In this document: piece by piece, positions 48,582-64,000 of the stretch
How positions within the stretch are numbered: the first letter of the stretch is position 1
Layout of the letters: each line of letters starts with the position of its first letter
Assembly (NCBI RefSeq): GCF_000176915.2
Contig: NC_014844.1
Span: forward strand, 806,001 to 870,000
Direction of reading: 5' to 3'
From: Pseudodesulfovibrio aespoeensis Aspo-2
GTDB lineage: Bacteria > Desulfobacterota > Desulfovibrionia > Desulfovibrionales > Desulfovibrionaceae
Length of the DNA: 64,000 nucleotides
The notes under the pieces: model-generated
The model's input: the letters and a program-made list of their open reading frames with translations, nothing else
Databases searched by the model: none
Told to the model about the DNA's origin: nothing
Translations under genes and position numbers: made by a program

Positions 48582-49988
48582 TCAGGGCCTGGCTATGTTG
48601 TGGAGTTTGATCAGGGTATAGAGCCGGGCGCGGGAGAGGCCGGAGAGGGCGCAGGCGCGGCGGATGTCGCCGTTGGCCAGGTCCATCAGGCGCGCCAGGT
48701 AGTGCTGTTCGATGTGTGCGATCTGGTCGGCGCGGTATGTCTTGAGGTCCGGGAAGTGTTCGCGCTCGCCCATGGCGATGTCGTGGCCGGTTTCTGCCGG
48801 GTGCGGGTCTTCCATGGCGCGCCGGGCCACCCGCGAGCGGATCATCCGGGGCAGGTGGCGGGGATAGAGGATGTTCTCCCGTCCCGCCTTGTTGATGGCC
48901 TGCTCGATGGTGTTCATCAGTTCGCGGATGTTGCCGGGCCAGTCGTACTGCATGAGCGCGCCGAGGAAATCCGGCGAGAAGCCTTTGCTTTCCACCCGGA
49001 GCCGTTGGCAGTGCCGCCGGATGAAGTGGCAGGTCAGCTCGTTGATGTCTTCGGAGATGTCTCTGAGCGGCGGCAGCTGGAGGCGGGTGCCGTGCAGGCG
49101 GTAGAAGAGGTCGCGTCTGAAGTCGCCGCTGGCGACCATGGCTTCCAGGTCGCGGTTGGTGGCTGAGAGCAGCCTGAAATCGCTCACGATCTCTGTTGTC
49201 GCCCCCACCGGCCTGAAGCTGCGGCCCTCCAGGACGCGCAGGAACACGCGCTGGATGGGCAGCGGCAGCTCGCCGACCTCGTCCAGGAACAGCGTGCCGC
49301 CGTCGGCCTGCCTGACCAGACCGATGGCATGGGTGTCCGCGCTGGTGAAGGCTCCCCGCTCGTGGCCGAAGAGCAGGCTTTCGGCCAGGGTATCGGGCAG
49401 GGCCGCACAATCCACCACCACGAACGATTTCTTTCGGCGCGGGCTGTTCTCGTGGATGGCTCTGGCAAAGAGCTCCTTGCCTGTGCCGGTTTCGCCGATG
49501 ATCAGGACGTTGCTTTCCGAGGCAGCGGCCATGGCCACGCTGTCCAGGGCGGATTGCAGCGAACGGCTGTTGCCCACGATGCCGCCCCGGCGCAGCGACA
49601 CGGGCGGGCGGGCCGACCGCCGTTCCTGCTGATAGTCCGTGATCCGGCTGATGAGGACTGTCAGCCGCTGGATGTTGGGCGGCTTGGTCAGGTAGTCCCA
49701 GGCCCCGTCGCGGATGGTGCGCTCGGCTGTGTCCGGATCCCTGTTGCGCGAGACGAAGATGATCTCGGGAAAGGACGGAATTTCGCGGATGGTGGCGAGA
49801 CAGTCGAGGCTGTCCCTGTCCGAGAGGTCGTCGCCGAGCAGGACCACCCGGTAGTCGCCTGTGTGCAGCATGCCCATGGCGCGGGCCAGGGAATTGCAAC
49901 AGGCTGCCGACAGGTTGTGCCGGGCAAGGTCCTGTTCCAACCGGGCGGTGTAGGCGGTGTCGCCGTCAATGATCAGGATGTCGGACAC
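48582..49988 (-). CDS. sigma54-dependent activator with degenerate receiver domain
   Basis: This 468-residue NtrC-type regulator has an N-terminal receiver (1-118), an AAA+ domain (about 138-375) and a C-terminal Fis-type helix-turn-helix (IRRACALSGLSRARLYTLIK). The AAA+ domain shows the Walker A GETGTGKELFARAI, the Walker B-like GGTLFLDEVGELPLP, and the sigma54-contact loop as GAFTSA instead of GAFTGA. In the receiver the acidic cluster is only partly kept (IIDGD). A gap-free alignment puts Gly52 at the phospho-acceptor position (VVLLGDDLSDRDSL), although Asp53 follows. The Lys of LTKPP is present. The start is GTG with GAGGAG upstream. It lies upstream of and divergent from the Hdr operon and is its probable regulator. 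Confidence 0.9.
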   Translation of the reverse strand: MSDILIIDGDTAYTARLEQDLARHNLSAACCNSLARAMGMLHTGDYRVVLLGDDLSDRDSLDCLATIREIPSFPEIIFVSRNRDPDTAERTIRDGAWDYLTKPPNIQRLTVLISRITDYQQERRSARPPVSLRRGGIVGNSRSLQSALDSVAMAAASESNVLIIGETGTGKELFARAIHENSPRRKKSFVVVDCAALPDTLAESLLFGHERGAFTSADTHAIGLVRQADGGTLFLDEVGELPLPIQRVFLRVLEGRSFRPVGATTEIVSDFRLLSATNRDLEAMVASGDFRRDLFYRLHGTRLQLPPLRDISEDINELTCHFIRRHCQRLRVESKGFSPDFLGALMQYDWPGNIRELMNTIEQAINKAGRENILYPRHLPRMIRSRVARRAMEDPHPAETGHDIAMGEREHFPDLKTYRADQIAHIEQHYLARLMDLANGDIRRACALSGLSRARLYTLIKLHNIARP

Positions 49989-52900: not shown

Positions 52901-53326
52901 ATGCGCAACGAGTTCGAACCGACCATACTGGCCTTTGTCTGCAACTGGTGCACCTACACGGCGGCGGATCTTGCCGGGACCTCCCGCATGGTCCAGCAGC
53001 CCAACCTGCGGCTGGTGCGGATGATGTGCACCGGCATGGTGGACCCCAAGTACATCGTCAAGTCCCTGCTCTCCGGGGCGGACGGCGTGCTCGTCAGCGG
53101 CTGCCATCCCGGCGACTGCCACTACATCAACGGCAACTACAAGGCCCGGCGCAGGATCAAGCTCTTAAACGAAATCCTGCCCCAGTTCGGCATCGACAAG
53201 GGCCGCGTCAAGCTGACCTGGGTCGGGGCCAGCGAGGGCAATGAATTCGCGGCCACGGTGAACCATTTCATCAACGAGATCAGAGAACTCGGTCCCATGG
53301 AAGCGCGTTCCATGGCCGTGGTCTAA
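52901..53326 (+). CDS. mvhD: MvhD-like iron-sulfur electron transfer subunit
   Basis: This 141-residue protein belongs to the MvhD family (hydrogenase iron-sulfur subunit delta). It binds a [2Fe-2S] cluster and links an electron donor to HdrA. Family motifs are AFVCNWCTYTAADLAG, VRMMCTGMVDPKYIVKSLLSGADGVLVSGCHPGDCHYINGN and LTWVGASEGNEFAATV. In methanogens its partner is a hydrogenase or formate dehydrogenase. Here no hydrogenase follows, but an FdhB/FrhB-like protein does. The spacing to both neighbours is under 30 bp. Confidence 0.94.
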   Translation: MRNEFEPTILAFVCNWCTYTAADLAGTSRMVQQPNLRLVRMMCTGMVDPKYIVKSLLSGADGVLVSGCHPGDCHYINGNYKARRRIKLLNEILPQFGIDKGRVKLTWVGASEGNEFAATVNHFINEIRELGPMEARSMAVV

Positions 53327-53350: not shown

Positions 53351-54493
53351 ATGGCGACCACAGCGAAGATACAGGTGGAAGGAAACAATCCGGTCTTGGC
53401 CCTCCAGGGCTTTCTGAAGGGGTTGCTGGGCGACGAATCCATCGGCGGTGTGCTGGTGTCGGTCCACCATTTTGGCAAGGGCATGCCCATGCCGACCCTG
53501 GTGACCGATCCGGCGCAGCTCTCTGGCGCGGACCCGCTGGCCCCGGCCTTTCCCATGAACAGCGCCAAGCTCCTGTCCCGCCTGACGCGCGGCCAGGCGG
53601 GCGAGCGCATCGCGGCGGTCATGCGTCCGTGCGAGATCAGGGCGTTTGTCGAGCTGGTCAAGCTCAACCAGGGCAGCCTCGATAACGTCATCCTGGTGGG
53701 CATGGACTGTCTGGGGGCCTACGACAACGTCAACTACAAGCTGTTTCTGGGCGATCAGGACCCGTTTGCCGCCACCCTTGGTTTTCATGGCGTGAACGGG
53801 GTCGGCGTGTCCGCCGGAGGGGTCGAGATAGCCAACGCCTGCAAGGCGTGCGAGCACCCGTCGCCGACCAACGCGGACATCGTCATCGGCGTTGCCGGGG
53901 CGGACCTGCGCGAGAGCATCCCGGTCATGGCCACCAGCGCGCGCGGCGAGGCGTTGCTCAGCGCGCTGAATCTGCCGGAAATCCAGTCCACCAACGGGCG
54001 CGACAAGGCCCTGGCCGCCCTGGTGGAGGCCAGGACCGTCTACCGCGACGCCATGATCGAGCAGACCAAGAGTGTGACCGGCACCCTGACCGACCTGTCC
54101 GAGTACCTTGCGGGCTGCGTCAACTGTTACAACTGCCGGGTGGCCTGCCCGGTCTGCTACTGCAAGGAGTGCGTCTTCAACACCGATGTCTTCGAGCACA
54201 AGCCGTGGCAGTACGTGGAGTGGGCCAAGCGCAAGGGCAGCCTCAAGATGCCCACGGATACCATCTTTTACCACCTGACGCGCATGGCGCACATGAGCAT
54301 GGCCTGCGTCGGATGCGGGCAGTGTTCCAACGCCTGTCCCAACGACATCCCGGTCATGGAGCTGTTCAGGACGGTTGCCGCGCGGACCCAGGCGAGCTTC
54401 GACTACGAGCCGGGGCGCAGCCTGGACGAGCCTCCGCCCATGTCGGTGTTCAAGGAGGACGAGTTCCAGGACACGGTGTCGCACATGGTCTGA
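53351..54493 (+). CDS. FdhB/FrhB-like iron-sulfur protein
   Basis: This 380-residue protein resembles the beta subunit of coenzyme F420 hydrogenase/formate dehydrogenase. The central part has AAVMRPCEIRAFVELVKLNQGSLDNVILVGMDCLG, typical of the FrhB/FdhB C-terminal domain. The C-terminal part has the Cys-rich segment CVNCYNCRVACPVCYCKECVF (near 256) and a classic 4Fe-4S site CVGCGQCSNACP (near 318). Such subunits usually carry FAD and pass electrons from NAD(P)H, F420H2 or formate modules to MvhD/HdrA. No catalytic formate dehydrogenase or hydrogenase subunit is encoded in the operon, so the donor is unknown. ATG 53351 follows AAAGGGG. Confidence 0.85.
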   Translation: MATTAKIQVEGNNPVLALQGFLKGLLGDESIGGVLVSVHHFGKGMPMPTLVTDPAQLSGADPLAPAFPMNSAKLLSRLTRGQAGERIAAVMRPCEIRAFVELVKLNQGSLDNVILVGMDCLGAYDNVNYKLFLGDQDPFAATLGFHGVNGVGVSAGGVEIANACKACEHPSPTNADIVIGVAGADLRESIPVMATSARGEALLSALNLPEIQSTNGRDKALAALVEARTVYRDAMIEQTKSVTGTLTDLSEYLAGCVNCYNCRVACPVCYCKECVFNTDVFEHKPWQYVEWAKRKGSLKMPTDTIFYHLTRMAHMSMACVGCGQCSNACPNDIPVMELFRTVAARTQASFDYEPGRSLDEPPPMSVFKEDEFQDTVSHMV

Positions 54494-54520: not shown

Positions 54521-57500
54521 ATGAGAAAGCAATACGGCGCATTGGTGGTCGGAGCGGGTATAGGCGGCATCCGGGCCGCCCTGGATCTGGCCGTCACCGG
54601 CCACAAGGTCGCGCTCATCGACAGGCGGCCAAACCACGGCGGCATCCTGAGCCAGCTCGACCACCAGTTCCCGTCGGACCATTGCGGCATGTGCAAGATG
54701 CTGCCGCTCATGGCGCGCGATTCGTCGAGCCAGTTCTGCCTGCGCAAGGGGTTATTCCACGACAACATCGACATCATGCTCTCCACCGAGCTGGTGGAGC
54801 TTGAGGGCGAGCCGGGCAAGTTCTTCGTGTCCCTCAGCCGCAAGTCCACGCTGATCGACCCGGCCAGGTGCGTCAGTTGCGGCAAGTGCTCGGAGGTCTG
54901 CCCGGTGCGGGTGCCGAGCGAGTACAACGCCGGGCTGACCATGCGGGCCGCCGTGCATCTGCCGGTGCCTCACGCCATCCCCAACCACTACGTGGTCGAC
55001 CTCGAAAACTGCCAGCGGTGCTGGAAGTGTCACGAGGCGTGCCCCACCGGAGCCATTGACTTCAAGTTCGACGAGCGCAAGGACTTCCACATCCTGGTGG
55101 CGGACAGCGATCCGGCGGTGGCGGCCATGATCAGGGAGAGTCTGGGCGAGCAGAACTTCCCCCTGCATTTCGCCGCTTCGGGCAGCGAGGCCGTGGACAT
55201 GCTTGCCGAAGGGAGTGAGGCCGGAGGCGGGCGCATCAGGCTGACGCTGCTGGGCATGAATCTGGACGACATGGGCGCGGACCGCGTGCTGACGCGTTGC
55301 CGCGAGCTGCGGCCCGACATGCCCGTGGTGCTCCTGGCCGAGCCGGAACAGGCGGAACAGGCCGCCGAACTGGTCATGCAGGGCGCGCGCGAACACCTGA
55401 CCAAGCCCCTGTCGGCCAAGCGGTTCGTGCCCTGGCTCGACAAGCTCTACATGCGCATCATGTCCGACACGGTGGAGGAGCTTGAGGTCGGGGCCGTGGT
55501 CCTGGCCGGCGGGTTCGAGTGCTACAATCCGGTCATGGACCCGGAGGGCGGCCAGGATGTGTGGTGCTACGACCACCCCGGCGTGCTCACGGCGGTGGAG
55601 TTCGAGCGGCTGCTCAGCCACGCCGGACCGACTGGAGGCCGCCTGCTCAGGCCGGGCGACAACGCCCCGGTGCGCAAGATCGCCTGGATACAGTGCGTGG
55701 GCTCGCGCGATGTGCAAAAGGGCGCGGATTTCTGCTCGGCGGTGTGCTGCATGTTCTCCATCAAGGAGGCCGTGCTGGCCAAAAAGGCCGCGGCCGGCGA
55801 CCTGGACGCCACCATCTTCTACATGGACATGCGGACCACGGGCAAGGGGTACCAGCGGTATCGCAACCGGGCTGAGGCCGAGGATGGCGTGCGCTTCGTG
55901 CGCAGCAGGCCTCACTCTGTCGTGCCTGCTCCGGACGGCAAGGGGCTGAAGATCGAGTTCATGACCGACGACGGCGCGCTGGTCGAGGAAATCTACGACA
56001 TGGTCGTGCTGGCCGCCGGGGCTCGCCCGCCCCGCGGCATGGACAAGTTCGCCCTGACCGCGGGCCTGGACCTCAACGAATGGGGATTCGTGCAAACCCA
56101 GCCCTACGCCCCGGAGCGGACCAGCCGCGTGGGCGTGTTCTCGGCAGGCGCGTTCGGCGAGCCCAAGGACATCTCGGAGTCGGTCATCCAGGCCGGCGCC
56201 GCAGCCTCGGCTGCGTCGCGGATCATCAAGATCTACGACGTGCTGGCCGGGATCGGCGGCGAGCCGGAGCCATCCTACCCCGACGTGTCCAGGGAGCCGC
56301 CCCGGACCTTTGTGGCCGTGTGCGCCTCCTGCCCCACCCTTGAGCTGGCCGTGGACCTGGACGCCCTGAGCCAAAGGCTGGCAACGGTCCATTCCGTGTG
56401 CAAGGTGGTGGCCGTGGGCAGCGCCTGCACCCATGCGGGCTGGAAGGACATCGAGCGCGGCGTGGCCGAGTTCAAGCCCAACCGGGTGCTGATCGGCGCG
56501 TGCATGCCCTATGCCTACATCCCCCGCCTCAAGGAGCTTGGCCGGGCCATCGGGTTGAATCCCGCCCTCATGGACGTGGTGGACATCTACAGCCCCACCT
56601 TTGACATGGGCCGGGACGACGACCCGGAGAGGCCGGACAGGACCATCAAGGCCGAAAAGGAGATTTACGCCGCCCTGGCCACTGCCGTGGCCCGGCTCCA
56701 GGGTGCGGACCCGGTGCCGCCGCCGACCATGGTGGACGTGGCCCGGTCCGCCCTGGTGGTGGGCGGCGGACTGGCCGGCATGACCGCGTCCATGTCCATC
56801 GCGGACCAGGGATACGGCGTCTGTCTGGTGGAGTCCGAGGAGGAGCTTGGCGGCATGGCCATGCGGCTGCACACGCAGCTCGACGGCACGGACCCGCGCA
56901 AGTTCATGGAGGAGCTGATTGGCCAGGTGGAGAAGCATCCGAACATCAAGGTGTTCAAGGACTCGCGCGTGGTGCTCTCGCGGGGCAGCGCCGGACGGTT
57001 CCGCTCGGCCATCGCCAGCCCGCGGGGGGTCTTTCCCCTGGAGCACGGCGTGACCATCCTGGCCACGGGCGGGCATGAGGCCAAGGTGTATGAGAGCGGC
57101 CTGTGTGTCCACAAGTCGGTCATGACCCATCTGGCCATGGAAGAGGGGCTGGCCAGCGGCACCATCGACGCCGGGGCGCTGGGGTCGGTGGTCATGATCC
57201 AGTGCTGGCGCGCGCCCGACGAGGACCGCAAGTATTGCAGCCGGGTCTGCTGCCCGGAGATGCTCAAGAACGTCCTCACCCTCAAGGAGCGCAACCCGAA
57301 TCTGCCCATCTACGTGTTCTACCGCGACATCATGACCCAGGGGTTCCTTGAGACCTACTACACCAAGGCGCGCAAGGCCGGGGCCATCTTCATCCGCTAC
57401 GATTCCGACACCAGGCCTGTGGTCACCTTCGAGGAAGGCAGGCCTGTGGTCACGGGACGCGATCCGGTCCTGGGCGCCGAGGTCCGGTTCAGGCCCGATC

Positions 57501-57994
57501 TCCTCTCCCTTTCGAGCGGCTTGGAGCCCAACGACGTGGAGGAACTGCTTGAAATCTTCGGGGTGGAGATCGACGGGGACGGCTTCTACCGCGAGGCGGA
57601 CTTCAAGTGGCGGCCCGTGGATTTCCTCAAGCAGGGCCTCTACATGTGCGGCATCGCCCACTCGCCCCGGCGCATGGACGAGACTATCGCCTCGGCCAAG
57701 GCTGCGGCCCAGCGCGCCCTGCGTATCCTCAACGCCGAGAAGATCACCCGCGAGACCGTGGTGGCCCAGGTGCGCCACTCCCTGTGCTCCCTGTGTCAGG
57801 CGTGCGTGGCGGCCTGCCCCTATGGCGCGCGCTCCCTGGACATGGACGCCGGGCGCATCGCGGTGGACGAGATACTCTGCCAGGGGTGCGGGGCGTGCGC
57901 GGCCGTGTGCCCCAACAGCGCGACCATACTCAAGGGATTCCACGACGGGCCGATGATGTCGGTCATCGACGCGGCCCTGGAAGAACCGGCATAG
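54521..57994 (+). CDS. double HdrA-like flavoprotein with embedded pseudo-receiver domain
   Basis: This 1157-residue protein joins two HdrA-like units. Unit 1 has an FAD motif (VVGAGIGGIRAALDLA, 9-24), Cys segment HCGMCKM (54-60), and 4Fe-4S sites CVSCGKCSEVCP (117-128) and CQRCWKCHEACP (164-175). A receiver-like domain (about 189-312; HILVADSDPAVAAMIRESLG, then TLLGMNLDDMGADRVL and LTKPLS) interrupts it. Gly245 replaces the phospho-acceptor Asp. The rest of unit 1 follows, with QCVGSRDVQKGADFCSAVCC (391-410). Unit 2 has an HdrA N-terminal-like part (597-690), a second FAD motif (VVGGGLAGM, 746-754), the variant QCWRAPDEDRKYCSRVCC and two final 4Fe-4S sites (1089-1099, 1120-1130). It probably acts as a second flavin site of the Hdr complex. 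Confidence 0.9.
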   Translation: MRKQYGALVVGAGIGGIRAALDLAVTGHKVALIDRRPNHGGILSQLDHQFPSDHCGMCKMLPLMARDSSSQFCLRKGLFHDNIDIMLSTELVELEGEPGKFFVSLSRKSTLIDPARCVSCGKCSEVCPVRVPSEYNAGLTMRAAVHLPVPHAIPNHYVVDLENCQRCWKCHEACPTGAIDFKFDERKDFHILVADSDPAVAAMIRESLGEQNFPLHFAASGSEAVDMLAEGSEAGGGRIRLTLLGMNLDDMGADRVLTRCRELRPDMPVVLLAEPEQAEQAAELVMQGAREHLTKPLSAKRFVPWLDKLYMRIMSDTVEELEVGAVVLAGGFECYNPVMDPEGGQDVWCYDHPGVLTAVEFERLLSHAGPTGGRLLRPGDNAPVRKIAWIQCVGSRDVQKGADFCSAVCCMFSIKEAVLAKKAAAGDLDATIFYMDMRTTGKGYQRYRNRAEAEDGVRFVRSRPHSVVPAPDGKGLKIEFMTDDGALVEEIYDMVVLAAGARPPRGMDKFALTAGLDLNEWGFVQTQPYAPERTSRVGVFSAGAFGEPKDISESVIQAGAAASAASRIIKIYDVLAGIGGEPEPSYPDVSREPPRTFVAVCASCPTLELAVDLDALSQRLATVHSVCKVVAVGSACTHAGWKDIERGVAEFKPNRVLIGACMPYAYIPRLKELGRAIGLNPALMDVVDIYSPTFDMGRDDDPERPDRTIKAEKEIYAALATAVARLQGADPVPPPTMVDVARSALVVGGGLAGMTASMSIADQGYGVCLVESEEELGGMAMRLHTQLDGTDPRKFMEELIGQVEKHPNIKVFKDSRVVLSRGSAGRFRSAIASPRGVFPLEHGVTILATGGHEAKVYESGLCVHKSVMTHLAMEEGLASGTIDAGALGSVVMIQCWRAPDEDRKYCSRVCCPEMLKNVLTLKERNPNLPIYVFYRDIMTQGFLETYYTKARKAGAIFIRYDSDTRPVVTFEEGRPVVTGRDPVLGAEVRFRPDLLSLSSGLEPNDVEELLEIFGVEIDGDGFYREADFKWRPVDFLKQGLYMCGIAHSPRRMDETIASAKAAAQRALRILNAEKITRETVVAQVRHSLCSLCQACVAACPYGARSLDMDAGRIAVDEILCQGCGACAAVCPNSATILKGFHDGPMMSVIDAALEEPA

Positions 57995-58010: not shown

Positions 58011-58580
58011 ATGAGCGAAGTGAAGACAAGGACATGGAGCCCGGCGACAGACGAATACCAGGCCGTGCTGGCCGGACTGCGGGACATGGTGGGGGCGTGC
58101 ATGCAGTGCGGCACCTGCACCGCGTCCTGCCCCAACTGGCACGCCATGGATGTGTCCCCGCGCCGCATGTGGCGGATGATCCAGTTCGGCATGCTCGACG
58201 AGATCCTGGAGAGCCGGACCTTCTGGCTGTGCTCGTCATGCTACATGTGCACCCTGCGCTGCCCGCGGGGGCTCAAGCTGACCTCGGCCATGGGCGCGCT
58301 CAAGCGGTTGGCGCGGCTCGACGGATCAAGGCAGGCCAGGCGCAACGGGGCCTTCTACGAGGCGTTCATGGCCGATGTGGAGGCCAACGGGCGGCTCCAG
58401 GAGGCGAGCATGATGCAGGGCTATTTCCTGCGGCGCATGGACCCGAGGCTGCCCCTGTCCTTTCTGCCCCTGGGGCTGAAGATGCTCGGCAAGGGCAAGC
58501 TGCACCTGCCGAACCATGCCCAGCGCGGACGGCTCGGACCCATGTTTGCCAAGGTCAGACAGATGGAGGCGGGATCATGA
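58011..58580 (+). CDS. hdrC: heterodisulfide reductase subunit C-like iron-sulfur protein
   Basis: HdrC passes electrons from HdrA to HdrB. The 189-residue soluble protein has two 4Fe-4S sites, CMQCGTCTASCPNW (near 30-41) and CSSCYMCTLRCPRG (near 73-84), with the family's SPRRMWRMIQFGMLDEIL between them. The C-terminal 90 residues are basic and helical. The stop overlaps the start of hdrB (ATGA). Confidence 0.93.
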   Translation: MSEVKTRTWSPATDEYQAVLAGLRDMVGACMQCGTCTASCPNWHAMDVSPRRMWRMIQFGMLDEILESRTFWLCSSCYMCTLRCPRGLKLTSAMGALKRLARLDGSRQARRNGAFYEAFMADVEANGRLQEASMMQGYFLRRMDPRLPLSFLPLGLKMLGKGKLHLPNHAQRGRLGPMFAKVRQMEAGS

Positions 58581-59587
58581 AGTACGCATACTACCCCGGC
58601 TGCTCGCTCATGGAGAGCGCGCGCGAATTCGATGTCTCGGTCCGGGCGGTCATGGACAGGCTCGGCGCAGAGCTGATCGAGATTCCGGACTGGACGTGCT
58701 GCGGGGCGAGCGCGGCCGAGCCGGTCAGCAAGCTCATGAACTACGCCCTGCCAGCCCGCAACTTGGCCATTGTCCAGGACGAGCTGCCGGGCCTGGACGT
58801 GCTCGCCCCGTGCAGCGCCTGCTACCTCAACCTGCTCAAGGTCAACCGCGAGGTGGTGGGCGAGCGGCATCTGCATGGCCGGGTCAACGAGGTGCTGGCC
58901 GCATCCGGCCTGACCTACCGGGGCGAGGTGAACGTGCGCCACCTGCTGGACGTGCTGCTCAACGACGTGGGCGCGGGGATCATGGCCCAGAAGGTGACTC
59001 GCGGTCTGGAGGGCATGAAGCTCGCGCCCTACTATGGCTGCCAGATTCTTAGGCCCTATCCCGTGTTCGACTCGCCGGGCAGGCCCACCTCCATGGAGCC
59101 GATCATCCGGGCCATGGGCGGGCAGGTGCATGAATGGGACTGCGGCAACCGGTGCTGCGGCGCGTCGCTCATGGTCGGCCACCGCGACGTGGCGCTGCAC
59201 TCCGTGGCCGCGATCCTCGATCAGGCCGACGGGGCAGACGCCGTGGTTACGGTCTGCCCCCTGTGCCAGATGAATCTCGAAGCCTACCAGGGCCAGGCCG
59301 TCAGGGCGGGGGGCCGCCGGGTGCCGGTGCTCTACCTGACGCAGGTCATGGGGCTGGCCCTGGGCCTGGACGAGGAGGCCGTGCAGCTGGGCAAGAACCT
59401 GAGCCTGAACGCCGGAGCCAGACACGGCATTGAAACGCGGGCCTGGAGCCTTGGGCTTCAGGCCGAAGATGCCGAGTCCGGCCAGGGGGGTCCGGGCGAG
59501 CCCCGGCCAGATCGGCCAGACCGGCCAGACCGGCCAGACCGGCCAGAAAAGAAGAGTAACCTCAACAAGGGAGCGAATCATGTTTAA
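58577..59587 (+). CDS. hdrB: heterodisulfide reductase subunit B-like CCG-domain protein
   Basis: HdrB carries the catalytic noncubane [4Fe-4S] clusters that reduce disulfides. The 336-residue protein has two CCG motifs: TCCGASAAEP with the later CSACY, and RCCGASLMVGH with CPLCQ, fitting the CX(31-39)CCGX(35-36)CXXC pattern. It starts KYAYYPGCSLMES as usual. The last 50 residues are an unusual tail of DRP repeats (DRPDRPDRPDRPEKK) encoded by 9-bp tandem repeats, not seen in classical HdrB. The last codons overlap the following usp start. Confidence 0.92.
   Translation: MKYAYYPGCSLMESAREFDVSVRAVMDRLGAELIEIPDWTCCGASAAEPVSKLMNYALPARNLAIVQDELPGLDVLAPCSACYLNLLKVNREVVGERHLHGRVNEVLAASGLTYRGEVNVRHLLDVLLNDVGAGIMAQKVTRGLEGMKLAPYYGCQILRPYPVFDSPGRPTSMEPIIRAMGGQVHEWDCGNRCCGASLMVGHRDVALHSVAAILDQADGADAVVTVCPLCQMNLEAYQGQAVRAGGRRVPVLYLTQVMGLALGLDEEAVQLGKNLSLNAGARHGIETRAWSLGLQAEDAESGQGGPGEPRPDRPDRPDRPDRPEKKSNLNKGANHV
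59504..59547 (+). repeat. 9-bp tandem repeat in the hdrB 3' end
   Basis: Five units of CGGCCAGAN (CGGCCAGAT, three CGGCCAGAC, final CGGCCAGA) lie in frame and encode the Asp-Arg-Pro tail of HdrB. The repeat could expand or contract without frameshift. Confidence 0.85.
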
Positions 59588-60482
59588 GGACATCATCGTC
59601 GGCGTCACGCCGTCCGGCGTGGACAAGTGCGCGGTCATGGCGGCTGCGGAGTTCGCCAGGAAGTTCGAGGCAAAGCTCTACCTGACCCACGTGGCGGGCA
59701 TGGCCCAGGGCTGGGGCTCCATGGAACACCTCGAACCCTCGGGTGAGACTGAGCGGATCAAGAGCCAGATAGAGGAGATGTACAGCGACCTCCTGAGCGG
59801 CATCGCGGAGTACCAGATCAACGTCATTCCGGGTATCCCCCACGCCGAGATACTGCGGCTGGCCCGCAAGAAGAACACCGACCTCATCGTCATGGGACCG
59901 CACACCAAGGAATACGAGGAAAAGCGGTCCAAGATGTGGGGCATGGCGGGCAGCACCCTGGAGCGCGTCAGCCAGAAGGCCCGCTGCCCGGTCATGATCG
60001 TGCACAAGGACGTGGCCTGCAAGGACCCGCTGTTCGAGAACATCCTGGTGGCCACTGACTTCTCGGATCAGGCCGAGTGCGCCGTGAACTACGGCGGCCA
60101 GATGGCCCGCCAGTACAAGGCGAACCTGACGGTCATGCACGTGGTCGAGCCCGGCGTGAGCGCGGGCGACGTCGAGGCCCGCCTGGCAAACGAATACGGC
60201 CCGCGTCTGGATGGCGTGCCCGGATGCTCGTTCGGTGTCTGTAGCGGCCAGCCGCCCATGGAGATCCTGCGCATGGCGCAGCAGAAGCGGGCCGACCTGA
60301 TCATCATGGCCCACCACTCCAAGGAGATGGACCCGGAGAAGGCGTTTCTCGGTTCCACGGTGGTCCAGGTGGCCCTCAACGGGGCCTGCCCGACCATGAG
60401 CGTCAACCGCCACTTCGATCTGCGCTGCGGCCTGATGTACGATCAGGCCGGCCAGGTCGTGCAGACCGAGGCCACAGTCTAG
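59580..60482 (+). CDS. tandem universal stress protein
   Basis: This 300-residue protein has two USP domains (about 1-145 and 150-290). Each begins with the DIIVGVTPS / NILVATDFSD strand and ends with SQKARCPVMIV / ALNGACPTMSV. The ATP-binding loops GPHTKEY and the second FLGSTVVQV are recognisable, although the first loop lacks the full G-2x-G-9x-GS pattern. USP proteins act in stress or starvation, often through nucleotide binding. ATG 59580 overlaps the end of hdrB and is preceded by AGGGAG. Its place inside the Hdr operon suggests a regulatory or sensor role for that complex, by inference only. Confidence 0.9.
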   Translation: MFKDIIVGVTPSGVDKCAVMAAAEFARKFEAKLYLTHVAGMAQGWGSMEHLEPSGETERIKSQIEEMYSDLLSGIAEYQINVIPGIPHAEILRLARKKNTDLIVMGPHTKEYEEKRSKMWGMAGSTLERVSQKARCPVMIVHKDVACKDPLFENILVATDFSDQAECAVNYGGQMARQYKANLTVMHVVEPGVSAGDVEARLANEYGPRLDGVPGCSFGVCSGQPPMEILRMAQQKRADLIIMAHHSKEMDPEKAFLGSTVVQVALNGACPTMSVNRHFDLRCGLMYDQAGQVVQTEATV

Positions 60483-60541: not shown

Positions 60542-61861
60542 ATGGACATGGTCATTCCAAAGCCGATGGATGTCGGGGTGCGCGACTTCCTGAACCGGTT
60601 CGACTTCAGCGCCTGCATGATCTGCGGGACATGCTCCAACGGCTGCCCGGTCACCGGCACGCCCGGCATGGGGGGCTGGGACACGCGCAAGGTCATGCGC
60701 ATGCTCGCCTATGGGATGGTGGACGAGGTCGTGGACTCGAAATTCCCGTGGTTGTGCACCGGCTGCGGGCGGTGCGCCTATTCCTGCCCCATGGGCATCG
60801 ACATCCCGGCGGTCATGGGCCACATGAAGAGCCTGCGTGACCGCGACAAGGTGCCGGGATCGCTGCACAAGGGCATGGCCAACAACCTGGAGACCGGCAA
60901 CAACCTCGCCATCTCCAAGGAGGAGTATCTCTCAGGCATGGCCGAACTGGGCGTGGAGATGGCCGAGGAGTGCCCCGGCTTCTTTGTCCCGGTGGACAAG
61001 CAGGACGCCAAGGTGTTGTTCTTCCCCAATTCCAAGGAGGTCTACGGCGATTTCGAGGACCAGTACTGGTGGTGGCGGATCTTTTACGCGGCCAAAGAGG
61101 ACTGGACCGTGCCATCCGAGGGCTGGGAGGCCGTGGACTGGGCGCTCTTCACCGGCAACTACGCGGGCAACAAGAAGCTGGCCAAGCGCAAGATCGACTA
61201 CATGAAGCAGCACAACATCGAGCGCATGATCATGCCCGACTGCGGCGGCGGTTCCTACGGCTGCCGCAAGGGCATGGACACCTGCGTGCTGGAGGACCCC
61301 AACAACGAGGTCGGGTTCATCTACCTCTATGATTACCTGGTCCAGGTCATCCGCGAGGGCCGCGTCAAGCTCGACAAGTCGGTCAACGCGGGCAGGCGGT
61401 TCACCTGGCACGACTCGTGTAAGCATGGCCGCGAGCTGGCCCGCCACTTCGGCAAGGGGTTTTATGACGAGCCGCGCTGGATCGTCAGGCAGTGCGTGGA
61501 CGACTTTGTCGAGATGTCGCCGGACCGGGGGCTCAACTACTGCTGCGGCGGGGGCGGCGGCATGTGGCCCATGCCCTTTGAGGACGAATCCGCCTGGCAT
61601 GCCCGGCACAAGTACGACCAGATCAAGCGCAGCGGCGCGGACGTGGTGGTGGTCGGCTGCTCCAACTGCCGCGACCAGATCATGAAGCGCATCCCCAAGT
61701 ACTACAAGGACTACAAGTACGAGGTGAAATACCTCTGGCAATTGGTGGCCGAGACCCTGATCCTCGAACCCTGGGAGCAGGACATGGTGGCCCGGGCCGA
61801 GGCCGCGGCCAAGGCCCAATGGGAGCGGCTGGGCGTGGAGCTGGACACGACTGAATACTGA
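60542..61861 (+). CDS. HdrD-like iron-sulfur oxidoreductase with CCG domain
   Basis: This 439-residue protein has two N-terminal 4Fe-4S sites, CMICGTCSNGCP (25-36) and CTGCGRCAYSCP (72-83). The catalytic region has HDSCKHGRELARHFG, the CCG motif in LNYCCGGGGGMWPMP (near 335) and CSNCRDQI. This layout is that of HdrD or lactate/glycolate-oxidase-type Fe-S proteins, which use noncubane clusters for disulfide chemistry. It may be a soluble variant acting with, or alternative to, HdrB. The ATG follows AAGGAG, 59 bp after usp. It is the last gene of the operon, before a strong terminator. Confidence 0.88.
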   Translation: MDMVIPKPMDVGVRDFLNRFDFSACMICGTCSNGCPVTGTPGMGGWDTRKVMRMLAYGMVDEVVDSKFPWLCTGCGRCAYSCPMGIDIPAVMGHMKSLRDRDKVPGSLHKGMANNLETGNNLAISKEEYLSGMAELGVEMAEECPGFFVPVDKQDAKVLFFPNSKEVYGDFEDQYWWWRIFYAAKEDWTVPSEGWEAVDWALFTGNYAGNKKLAKRKIDYMKQHNIERMIMPDCGGGSYGCRKGMDTCVLEDPNNEVGFIYLYDYLVQVIREGRVKLDKSVNAGRRFTWHDSCKHGRELARHFGKGFYDEPRWIVRQCVDDFVEMSPDRGLNYCCGGGGGMWPMPFEDESAWHARHKYDQIKRSGADVVVVGCSNCRDQIMKRIPKYYKDYKYEVKYLWQLVAETLILEPWEQDMVARAEAAAKAQWERLGVELDTTEY

Positions 61862-61954: not shown

Positions 61955-64000
61955 TTACTTCTTGGTGGCGCCATACCCCAGCGGCAGTGTCTTGAAGCGG
62001 CCTCCCGAGAGGATCGGGTCGTCCTTGTAGCCGAGCTTCTTGAAGTCGATGTAGTCCGTGGTGCCGATCAGGGAGCCGACATCGCGTCCCTTGAGCCGCA
62101 GGTGTTCGAAGTCAGCGCCTTTTTCCACCAGTTCGCGGAACTTGGCGTTGCGGCCATCCTGGTGGCAGCGGTCGCAGGTGCGATCGCCCTTGAGGCTCGT
62201 GTGGCATTGCACGCAGGACAGGGCGTGCTCCTTGGGCATGACTTCATGCTCGATGCGCCAGTACATGTTCGTGGCGACCCACATGTACTCGCCGCTGTAG
62301 GGCAGCTTGGCCTTTTTCATGCCTTCCTCGAAGGCAGCCTGCCAATCCGCGCTCACCCAGAATGCCGTTTTGTCTTCCTTGTCATAGGGGAACGTGTGGG
62401 GGACAAGCAGATGCCGATGCTCGGCATCGGCGGGCTGGATGGCGGCCATGATCTTGAAGGGCGTGATCTTGGAGTGCGGGTCCTTCATCGAGCCGATGGG
62501 TTCGGTGATGTTGGTCTTCACCAGGGCGCGCTTCTGCGCATAGGTCAGTTCCTCGCCCGGCCTGAAGCCCACGGCGTCGGGGTTGATGGTGTCGCCCAGG
62601 ACGTGCCGCTTCATGAATCCGTTGTACCACGCGTATTCCGGCTTGGCGGATTCCTTCCACTCAAAGGTTCCCTTCATCCAGTTGTAATCCTCCTTGCCGT
62701 ACTTGTCCTTCTGGGCCTTGCGATCCCTGTCTCCGGCAGTGGACCAGTCCCACCATGTCTTGGTGGCGAGGCATTTGGAGTATACGGGCGAGTGGCAGGT
62801 GTTGCAGCCCACCGTGTCGCAATGCTTGTTCAGGTGATGGTCGAGCAGGCTGTCGCCGTAGTGCGGGGCCGAGGTGTGGCAGTCCTCGCAGGCGCGGGAC
62901 CCCTCGACCACCGGGGCGGACGTGGAGCGGCCCGATATCTTGTGATTTCGGGTTTGATGGCATTCCACGCACTGGAAGTCATACCCGCCCATGTGGATGT
63001 CGCAGTCGCGGCTGGGCCAGTTCAGTTCCGAGCTCATGTCCGCGTGCTTGACCGCGTCGCCGCCGCCGCCGCTGAAGTGGCAGGTGCCGCACGAACTGCG
63101 GCTGGTGGGGCCGACATTTTGCGCCACATGGGGCAGATCGACCTTGGGGTCGGGCATGCCCGCCTTGGGCGGCGCCTTGACGTAACTGCCGGTGGTGTCA
63201 TGGCAGACCAGGCAGTCGATGTTTTCGGTTTTGCTGAAGTCGAAGGTGTCGTCCTTCCAGCCGTATCCGGCATGGCATGACGTGCAGCGGGCCTCGTTGC
63301 TGAGGATGGAGATGCAGAAGTTGTTGATCGTTGTCGTTCCCTTGCCCGACATGACGTCCTTCCTCTGCTCGGTCGTAAAGGGCGAAGGGCCGCGCCACAG
63401 CCAATGGGCCGAGGTCAGCATGTCCTTGCCCGCGTCCTCGTGGCAGCGCAGGCACTCCTTGGTCACTTCCTGAGGTGTGGGGTTGGCCGGGAGCTTGACC
63501 AGTTCCTTGTGATCCACAGGACGCGTGGCATGGCATCCTTCGCAACTGACCGGCCCCTTCTTCATGTCGGCATGACACCCCATGCACTGGATGTGGTAGG
63601 CGGCCTTGAGGCCGAGGCGCTCCTGGTCGCCGCCAGAAAACGCCTCCTGGTGACAGGATCTGCAGGCCACGGTTTCAGCAGCCTCGGGGTCGGCGGGACG
63701 GTAATGGTGACACGCCGCGCAGTCTCCGTCCAGCGATGCCGCATGCTTTGCGTGCATGAACCGCACCGGGCCATACTTTTTGTCGTAGGTGTCGACGTAG
63801 GGGCTGTCGAGAAGGATGTAGCTGCGCTTGATATCCTTGAACCCGATGTCAATGTTGCGCAGCCGCTGTTGCCTGAGCGGCAGGTCCTCCATGAGCACCT
63901 TCTCCACATACGGATACGTTTTCCTGGCCAGTTCTTCGGCCTCCTGCTGATCCGGAGCCACCCAGCCTTCCGGCTTGGGGGTCAGGTCCTTTCTGGATTT
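61955..64000 (-). CDS. 13-heme c-type cytochrome of the octaheme tetrathionate reductase family, 5' end missing
   Basis: The minus-strand frame stays open to the window edge, so the N-terminus and signal peptide lie outside. At least 681 residues are visible. An N-terminal module has four heme sites (CAACH, CRSCH, CMGCH, CEGCH) resembling a class III cytochrome. It is followed by nine more: CLRCH, CTSCH, CLVCH, CGTCH, CVECH, CEDCH, CNTCH, CVQCH and CDRCH. The segment CTSCHAGYGWKDDTFDFS...CLVCHD, and CGTCHFSGGGGDAVKHAD, match the octaheme tetrathionate reductase (OTR) family. It would be periplasmic and could reduce tetrathionate, nitrite or hydroxylamine, or simply wire electrons. It is convergent with the Hdr operon. 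Confidence 0.88.
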   Translation of the reverse strand, partial: KSRKDLTPKPEGWVAPDQQEAEELARKTYPYVEKVLMEDLPLRQQRLRNIDIGFKDIKRSYILLDSPYVDTYDKKYGPVRFMHAKHAASLDGDCAACHHYRPADPEAAETVACRSCHQEAFSGGDQERLGLKAAYHIQCMGCHADMKKGPVSCEGCHATRPVDHKELVKLPANPTPQEVTKECLRCHEDAGKDMLTSAHWLWRGPSPFTTEQRKDVMSGKGTTTINNFCISILSNEARCTSCHAGYGWKDDTFDFSKTENIDCLVCHDTTGSYVKAPPKAGMPDPKVDLPHVAQNVGPTSRSSCGTCHFSGGGGDAVKHADMSSELNWPSRDCDIHMGGYDFQCVECHQTRNHKISGRSTSAPVVEGSRACEDCHTSAPHYGDSLLDHHLNKHCDTVGCNTCHSPVYSKCLATKTWWDWSTAGDRDRKAQKDKYGKEDYNWMKGTFEWKESAKPEYAWYNGFMKRHVLGDTINPDAVGFRPGEELTYAQKRALVKTNITEPIGSMKDPHSKITPFKIMAAIQPADAEHRHLLVPHTFPYDKEDKTAFWVSADWQAAFEEGMKKAKLPYSGEYMWVATNMYWRIEHEVMPKEHALSCVQCHTSLKGDRTCDRCHQDGRNAKFRELVEKGADFEHLRLKGRDVGSLIGTTDYIDFKKLGYKDDPILSGGRFKTLPLGYGATKK

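Follow-up and report, generated by a model that had tools for sequence, protein, structure and literature searches.

Why should a redox enzyme carry, inside its catalytic subunit, a signaling domain that appears to have lost its site of phosphorylation? The question is raised by an HdrA-like flavoprotein encoded in the window, by which we mean the whole stretch of 64,000 nucleotides analyzed here from Pseudodesulfovibrio aespoeensis. Table 1 lists the features of this protein and of the genes around it.

Table 1. Features of the hdr locus and of its receiver-bearing HdrA, in positions of the window
Feature	Position	Strand	Basis
Sigma-54 activator with degenerate receiver	48582..49988	-	PF00072 and PF00158
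Receiver of the activator (Gly52 at the Asp position, codon 49833-49835; state D-G-G-S-K)	49653-49979	-	
HdrA, single, 676 aa	50861..52891	+	Pfam, comparison with relatives, synteny
MvhD/FlpD-like electron-input subunit	52901..53326	+	PF02662
FrhB/FdhB-like Fe-S subunit	53351..54493	+	PF04432 and Fer4
Double HdrA-like flavoprotein, 1157 aa, holds the receiver	54521..57994	+	Pfam, NCBIfam, HdrA matches by sequence and fold
HdrA inserted ferredoxin domain, about residues 108-182, directly 5' of the receiver	54842..55066	+	Fer4 matches, 5ODC alignment
Inserted block, residues 183-317	55067..55471	+	HMMER alignment to 5ODC_A
Receiver (βα)5 domain, residues 190-315	55088..55465	+	PF00072, models, PDB fold search
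Codons of Asp195 (DD1, retained) and Ser196 (DD2, metal ligand lost)	55103..55108	+	
Codon of Gly245, phospho-acceptor position, last residue of β3	55253..55255	+	CheY alignment, model DSSP
Helix α3, residues 253-263, with R259 and E262	55277..55309	+	
Codon of Ala273, conserved Thr/Ser gone	55337..55339	+	
Codon of Lys295, conserved Lys retained	55403..55405	+	
Helix α5, residues 299-315, with newly constrained W305, D307, K308, R312 and S315 (then D316)	55415..55465	+	
HdrC	58011..58580	+	Fer4 dicluster domains, operon synteny
HdrB	58577..59587	+	Start read from frame, synteny
Tandem universal stress protein (Usp)	59580..60482	+	PF00582

The host protein has the FAD domain, the inserted ferredoxin domain, and the C-terminal ferredoxin domain of HdrA, and it is homologous to the solved HdrA structures. 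Its sequence matches 8RVU, 5ODC, and 7BKB (E 7e-104 for 5ODC_A), and the HdrA matches to its fold include the same three entries as well as 8RVY_A (E 3.9e-43). Scores against the methanogen HdrA equivalogs fall below the curated cut-offs (NF041778, 489 versus 1400 bits; NF041891, 477 versus 1300 bits). The full-length AlphaFold2 model, which like all models used here represents the chain only, without cofactors or partners, has a pLDDT of 87.1 and a pTM of 0.87. Two HdrA modules are joined in this chain. Module 1 (about residues 1–590) consists of an FAD domain, the inserted ferredoxin, and the receiver, while in module 2 (about residues 591–1157), an N-terminal HdrA domain is followed by another FAD domain and the C-terminal ferredoxin. 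In module 1, Cys58 is the equivalent of methanogen HdrA Cys197, and the N-terminal domain is missing; in module 2, the N-terminal domain is present and the Cys197 equivalent is absent. Because the cysteine and the N-terminal domain are split between the modules, the two may complete each other's Fe–S site inside one chain. Such completion between modules (Cys197 complementarity) has been proposed for the double HdrA fusions of ANME (PMC9012536).

The receiver lies between residues 182 and 318, which correspond to residues 311 and 316 of 5ODC_A; where 5ODC_A has a loop of about 4 residues, this protein has a block of about 135. The Pfam profile Response_reg (PF00072) matches residues 191–302 with 41.0 bits (E 2.4e-10), above its gathering cut-off of 30.2. 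When modeled alone, the domain adopts the (βα)5 fold with a pLDDT of 93.5, and the top 50 PDB matches of the isolated domain are receivers almost throughout (3JTE, E 2e-8, TM 0.82; NtrC1, DctD, and CheY). The model places the secondary structure elements at residues 190–194 (β1), 198–211 (α1), 215–218 (β2), 221–230 (α2), 239–245 (β3), 253–263 (α3), 269–273 (β4), 275–286 (α4), 291–294 (β5), and 299–315 (α5). Profile, model, and PDB matches thus agree, well beyond chance, with a preliminary description of this DNA, which had recognized a receiver within HdrA. The span given there is residues 189–312; its nucleotide positions equal residues 189–313, and the inserted block is larger, at about 183–317.

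An alignment to CheY and 264 receivers assigns the canonical DD1-DD2-D-T-K positions to D195-S196-G245-A273-K295. The same description had proposed that Gly245 replaces the phospho-acceptor Asp, and both the CheY alignment and the model, which put Gly245 at the end of β3, bear this out. The protein has neither the Asp nor a complete DD1/DD2 pair, of which DD2 contacts the metal directly in receivers (PMC12632262), nor the full set of Thr/Ser and Lys. It is therefore a receiver by profile that is devoid of key phosphotransfer residues, as pseudo-receivers (PsR/ALR) are defined (PMC12632262). Judged by these residues, the domain is in all likelihood a pseudo-receiver, and it should not undergo the usual phosphorylation.

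The gene order hdrA-mvhD-frhB-hdrA(receiver)-hdrC-hdrB is common to most loci with a receiver-bearing HdrA. Together, the genes of the window encode the subunit set of an Hdr complex, for which electron bifurcation is predicted. In the window, the first HdrA encoded by the operon is without a GltD/NfnB-like NAD(P)H insertion, as in the Desulfovibrionaceae examined, whereas the first HdrA of Desulfobacterales has a GltD/NfnB-like module inserted and measures about 1136 aa versus 676 aa (for example, L128:4399-7809), implying that the electron donor probably differs. Beyond the operon lie genes for an HmcF/TmcB/DsrK-like CCG protein and, convergently, for a multihaem cytochrome c (60542-61861 and 61955-63961), which could provide a membrane or periplasmic electron link.

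The same protein, with its insert at the same place, was found in 33 of the 149 genomes drawn from the family of the window, Desulfovibrionaceae, and in 22 of 36 genomes of its genus. Outside this family, a phylum-wide draw of 395 genomes yielded 11 genomes from eight other families. More than 50 further loci were recovered from a genome collection that was scanned with the canonical subset of a mixed alignment, including loci in Desulfonema magnum, Desulfospira joergensenii, Desulfatirhabdium, and Syntrophobacteraceae. In all these relatives, genes are open reading frames rather than curated calls. The insertion point is the exit of the HdrA inserted ferredoxin domain and is shared by Desulfovibrionaceae and at least eight other families, and the receiver is present at full length and free of frameshifts in every Desulfovibrionaceae copy found.

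Other domains occur at or near this site as well. The ANME-1 HdrA has an NfnB domain inserted in its ferredoxin domain (PMC9012536), and two Desulfotignum genomes (L138:9569-12523 and L139:3267-6215) encode a double HdrA without the inserted ferredoxin cysteines, which contains an intact receiver instead. These cases and the GltD/NfnB-like insert of Desulfobacterales indicate that the site tolerates foreign domains. In the same operon type, several loci encode a Usp-REC-Usp protein with an intact receiver between two Usp domains (L100:14542-15855, L188:13707-15020, L132:2249-3610, L135, and L136). The Usp-borne receivers nest within the HdrA receivers on the tree and are the nearest receivers to the HdrA group, and one receiver type thus seems to have been inserted into two proteins of one system.

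Outside Desulfovibrionaceae, the phosphorylation site of the HdrA receiver is intact. The state D-D-D-T-K was found at 47 of 47 loci, one of them truncated before the Lys, and the acidic pair, Asp, Thr, and Lys are invariant in all 40 full-length rows. In these rows, the receiver core is the most conserved region of the protein; its mean entropy is 0.86 bits, whereas the FAD/ferredoxin part has 0.98 and module 2 has 1.55. A histidine kinase gene follows downstream on the same strand within 5.2 kb at 39 of 55 loci (a count that includes two duplicate records; the kinase domains were confirmed by Pfam in representatives), commonly as a pair, a histidine kinase of about 768 aa and after it a REC-HK protein of about 390 aa. 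At 25 of the 55 loci, there is a stand-alone receiver gene upstream. From the intact site and the adjacent kinase genes, we infer that the original device was a phospho-switch built into the electron-bifurcating Hdr enzyme. The simplest reading is that the HdrA receiver would act as a phosphorylated input domain of this enzyme, although the adjacent kinases may serve transcription only, as a sigma-54 regulator and stand-alone receivers share these loci.

Within Desulfovibrionaceae, by contrast, the HdrA receiver is degenerate throughout, and DD2 is gone in every genome, whether a kinase is adjacent or not. Most genera of the family have a divergent hybrid kinase gene that separates the sigma-54 activator gene from the hdr operon, with the domain order PAS-PAS-HisKA-HATPase-REC according to Pfam on one representative. 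Where this kinase is present, the receiver of the activator keeps its Asp (22 of 22 genomes, among which L172 was assigned by hand, its kinase frame overlapping the operon in the naive gene call); where it is absent, that Asp is lost (25 of 25 genomes, the window included). On a trait tree built without the receiver columns, loss of the kinase and loss of the activator Asp are one change each, on the same strongly supported branch. Their coupling is complete but, with this single origin, unreplicated. A search of the 64 kb with the kinases of eight relatives (tblastn) revealed no kinase remnant, and a clear orthologue of the lost kinase was not detected elsewhere in the genome, where the best full-genome match has 36% identity over part of the length.

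The Asp of the HdrA receiver was lost four times on the tree and became Gly in the genus of the window and a neighboring genus (21 rows, SH-aLRT 100). Five kinase-bearing genomes of the family lack the HdrA Asp and four kinase-less genomes have it. Since exceptions run both ways, this residue does not track the kinase; only the Asp of the activator does so, as one event. Loss of the kinase is thus no clean cause of the loss of the HdrA Asp. Nor can the change from Asp to Gly have been the decisive event, because DD2 is lost family-wide, and Thr mostly, even in genera that keep the Asp; it is a late loss and not the defining one. Decay began with the loss of DD2 everywhere, continued with the loss of the hybrid kinase and the phospho-Asp of the activator on one branch, and ended with the replacement of the HdrA Asp by Gly. 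The HdrA receiver itself sits on a long branch (1.62) of the receiver tree. A derivation from the receiver of the adjacent activator was rejected, as the two belong to different parts of this tree.

One locus that bears the genus code of the window, L159 (G139:C1:603200-622600), has both the hybrid kinase and an activator that is intact, and its HdrA groups with that of another genus (L174), which suggests that the operon was transferred horizontally or has had a history of its own. Genome G110 contains two copies of the operon (L164 and L204), and a separate hybrid kinase and activator accompany each of them.

The degenerate receivers remain under purifying selection. In comparisons of close species, the receiver has a dN/dS of 0.05–0.39, mostly about 2–8 times that of the N-terminal FAD/ferredoxin part. 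Mean pairwise identity of the receiver core is 0.72 outside Desulfovibrionaceae versus 0.36 inside, while that of α5 is 0.33 outside versus 0.51 inside, a gain in constraint that is inflated in part by the closer kinship of the Desulfovibrionaceae set, an effect that the use of one row per genus reduces but does not remove. R259, E262 (both in α3), and R312 (in α5) are found in 17 of 17 genera of the family, each represented by one genome, and R259 and E262 are not invariant outside it; W305, D307, K308, S315, and D316 are invariant in 15–16 of the 17. By these comparisons of sequences, constraint has shifted away from the phosphosite and onto helices α3 and α5. In pseudo-receivers, the region of α2, the β3α3 loop, and α3 gains importance (PMC12632262). 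Given its low dN/dS and the relocated constraint, the receiver of the window is probably no dead relic.

We propose a model for this history, to which we assign a probability of roughly 0.6. Early in Desulfobacterota, an NtrC/AtoC-type receiver would have been inserted into one HdrA of the hdrA-mvhD-frhB-hdrA-hdrC-hdrB operon, where a locally encoded histidine kinase would phosphorylate it. The ensuing conformational change would alter the adjacent ferredoxin domain, perhaps by locking or freeing it, or the mobile arm, and would thereby tune the low-potential branch of electron bifurcation and hence ferredoxin reduction. Electron gating in Hdr is thought to run via movement of the mobile arm (PMC12350162), and in methanogen Hdr, low-potential electrons have been proposed to exit through the inserted ferredoxin domain (PMC9012536). 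In Desulfovibrionaceae, the switch would have been disconnected in steps, and the lineage of the window would have kept the non-phosphorylatable pseudo-receiver for its α3 and α5 surfaces. Today it most likely serves, at the ferredoxin exit, as a structural or docking module.

The preliminary description had suggested an unphosphorylated domain that binds a partner or a small ligand. The pseudo-receiver state, a dN/dS below 1, and the fixed residues in α3 and α5 fit either partner binding or a structural role. Its further suggestion, that such a partner might be the activator encoded next door, found no support and is best considered together with the broader idea of a true sensor or adaptor, which would bind a ligand, a redox signal, or a signaling protein such as the activator or Usp and would either regulate the enzyme or report to transcription. 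The newly invariant α3 and α5 residues do suggest a binding surface, known pseudo-receivers work through partners or Cys redox (PMC12632262), and nearly every Desulfovibrionaceae genome examined has the genes for the activator and Usp next to the operon. However, on the tree the HdrA receiver stands apart from that of the activator, and the α3/α5 signature is identical in genera with an intact activator, so it did not arise with the change in the activator. Nor was a conserved Cys seen in the receiver alignment. Overall, we regard a sensor or adaptor as rather unlikely.

A relic, which lost its kinase input, is hard to delete cleanly, and persists with no function beyond folding, would explain why the receiver evolves faster than the flanking FAD/ferredoxin part, and would fit its long branch and the stepwise loss of the phosphosite. 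Yet dN/dS is well below 1, all Desulfovibrionaceae copies found are of full length, with no frameshift, and positions are invariant over 17 genera, seemingly beyond the needs of folding; we therefore consider a relic improbable. Still more doubtful, to the point of being very improbable, is that phosphorylation persists at another residue, namely Asp249, Asp250, or a Ser/Thr. Acidic residues do follow β3, and Lys295 and Asp195 are retained, but neither the metal ligand DD2 nor the Thr is left, position 249 is unconserved within the family and 250 only partly conserved, and no partner kinase adjoins the operon, with the partial match mentioned above as the best candidate in the genome.

We see even odds that in many Desulfobacterota, two-component phosphorylation directly switches Hdr bifurcation on the enzyme itself, the window representing an end point of decay at which a pseudo-receiver has gained a new interaction surface. 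As far as we found, no signaling pathway has been described that controls flavin-based electron bifurcation post-translationally, and direct two-component control would, if proved, be of high interest. It is directly testable, as Desulfospira joergensenii and Desulfonema magnum are among the cultured strains with intact homologues. In addition, the Desulfovibrionaceae series provides a natural record of the passage from receiver to pseudo-receiver, with the order of residue losses, the loss of the kinase, and the relocation of constraint. How bacterial pseudo-receivers work has been named as an open question (PMC12632262).

Pseudo-receivers, enzyme-linked receivers, and domain insertions in HdrA are each already known. 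What appears to be new is a receiver inserted in HdrA, intact across the phylum and decaying in one family; no earlier description of a receiver inside HdrA was found in the literature searched, which excluded most subscription journals. The intact HdrA homologues resemble CheB-type response regulators with enzymatic output in joining a phosphorylatable-looking receiver to an enzyme. Unlike in CheB, the receiver is nested within the enzyme chain, and its output would be an electron-bifurcating flavoenzyme. To our knowledge, no case of this kind has been described.

In Desulfobacterium autotrophicum HRM2, hdr locus VIII contains tandem hdrL/hdrA4, an fdhB-like gene, and hdrB/hdrC, and a figure legend lists genes of the response regulator, histidine kinase, and CheY-like types next to hdr loci (PMC2702500). 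Compared by the text of that paper, the tandem HdrA layout is alike, and a receiver inside HdrA is not mentioned. Methanogen HdrA (5ODC, 7BKB, and 8RVU) shares with the protein of the window the FAD domain, the inserted and C-terminal ferredoxin domains, and the HdrB, HdrC, and MvhD partners encoded in the operon, but the latter has two HdrA modules per chain, and a receiver replaces the short loop after its inserted ferredoxin. HdrA 9–11 of ANME-1 are similar in having a big foreign domain at or in the inserted ferredoxin domain, and double HdrA fusions with Cys197 complementarity are a further likeness (PMC9012536); their NfnB insert, however, is a redox domain, whereas that of the window is a signaling domain. 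The known pseudo-receivers or aspartate-less receivers (Bourret et al, 2025; PMC12632262) agree with the HdrA receiver in their profile and fold match, in missing DD2, Asp, and Thr, and in the gain of constraint in α3. In contrast to these proteins, the HdrA receiver is embedded in a catalytic redox subunit, with no DNA-binding or common signaling output, and its intact orthologues at the same position make its decay traceable step by step.
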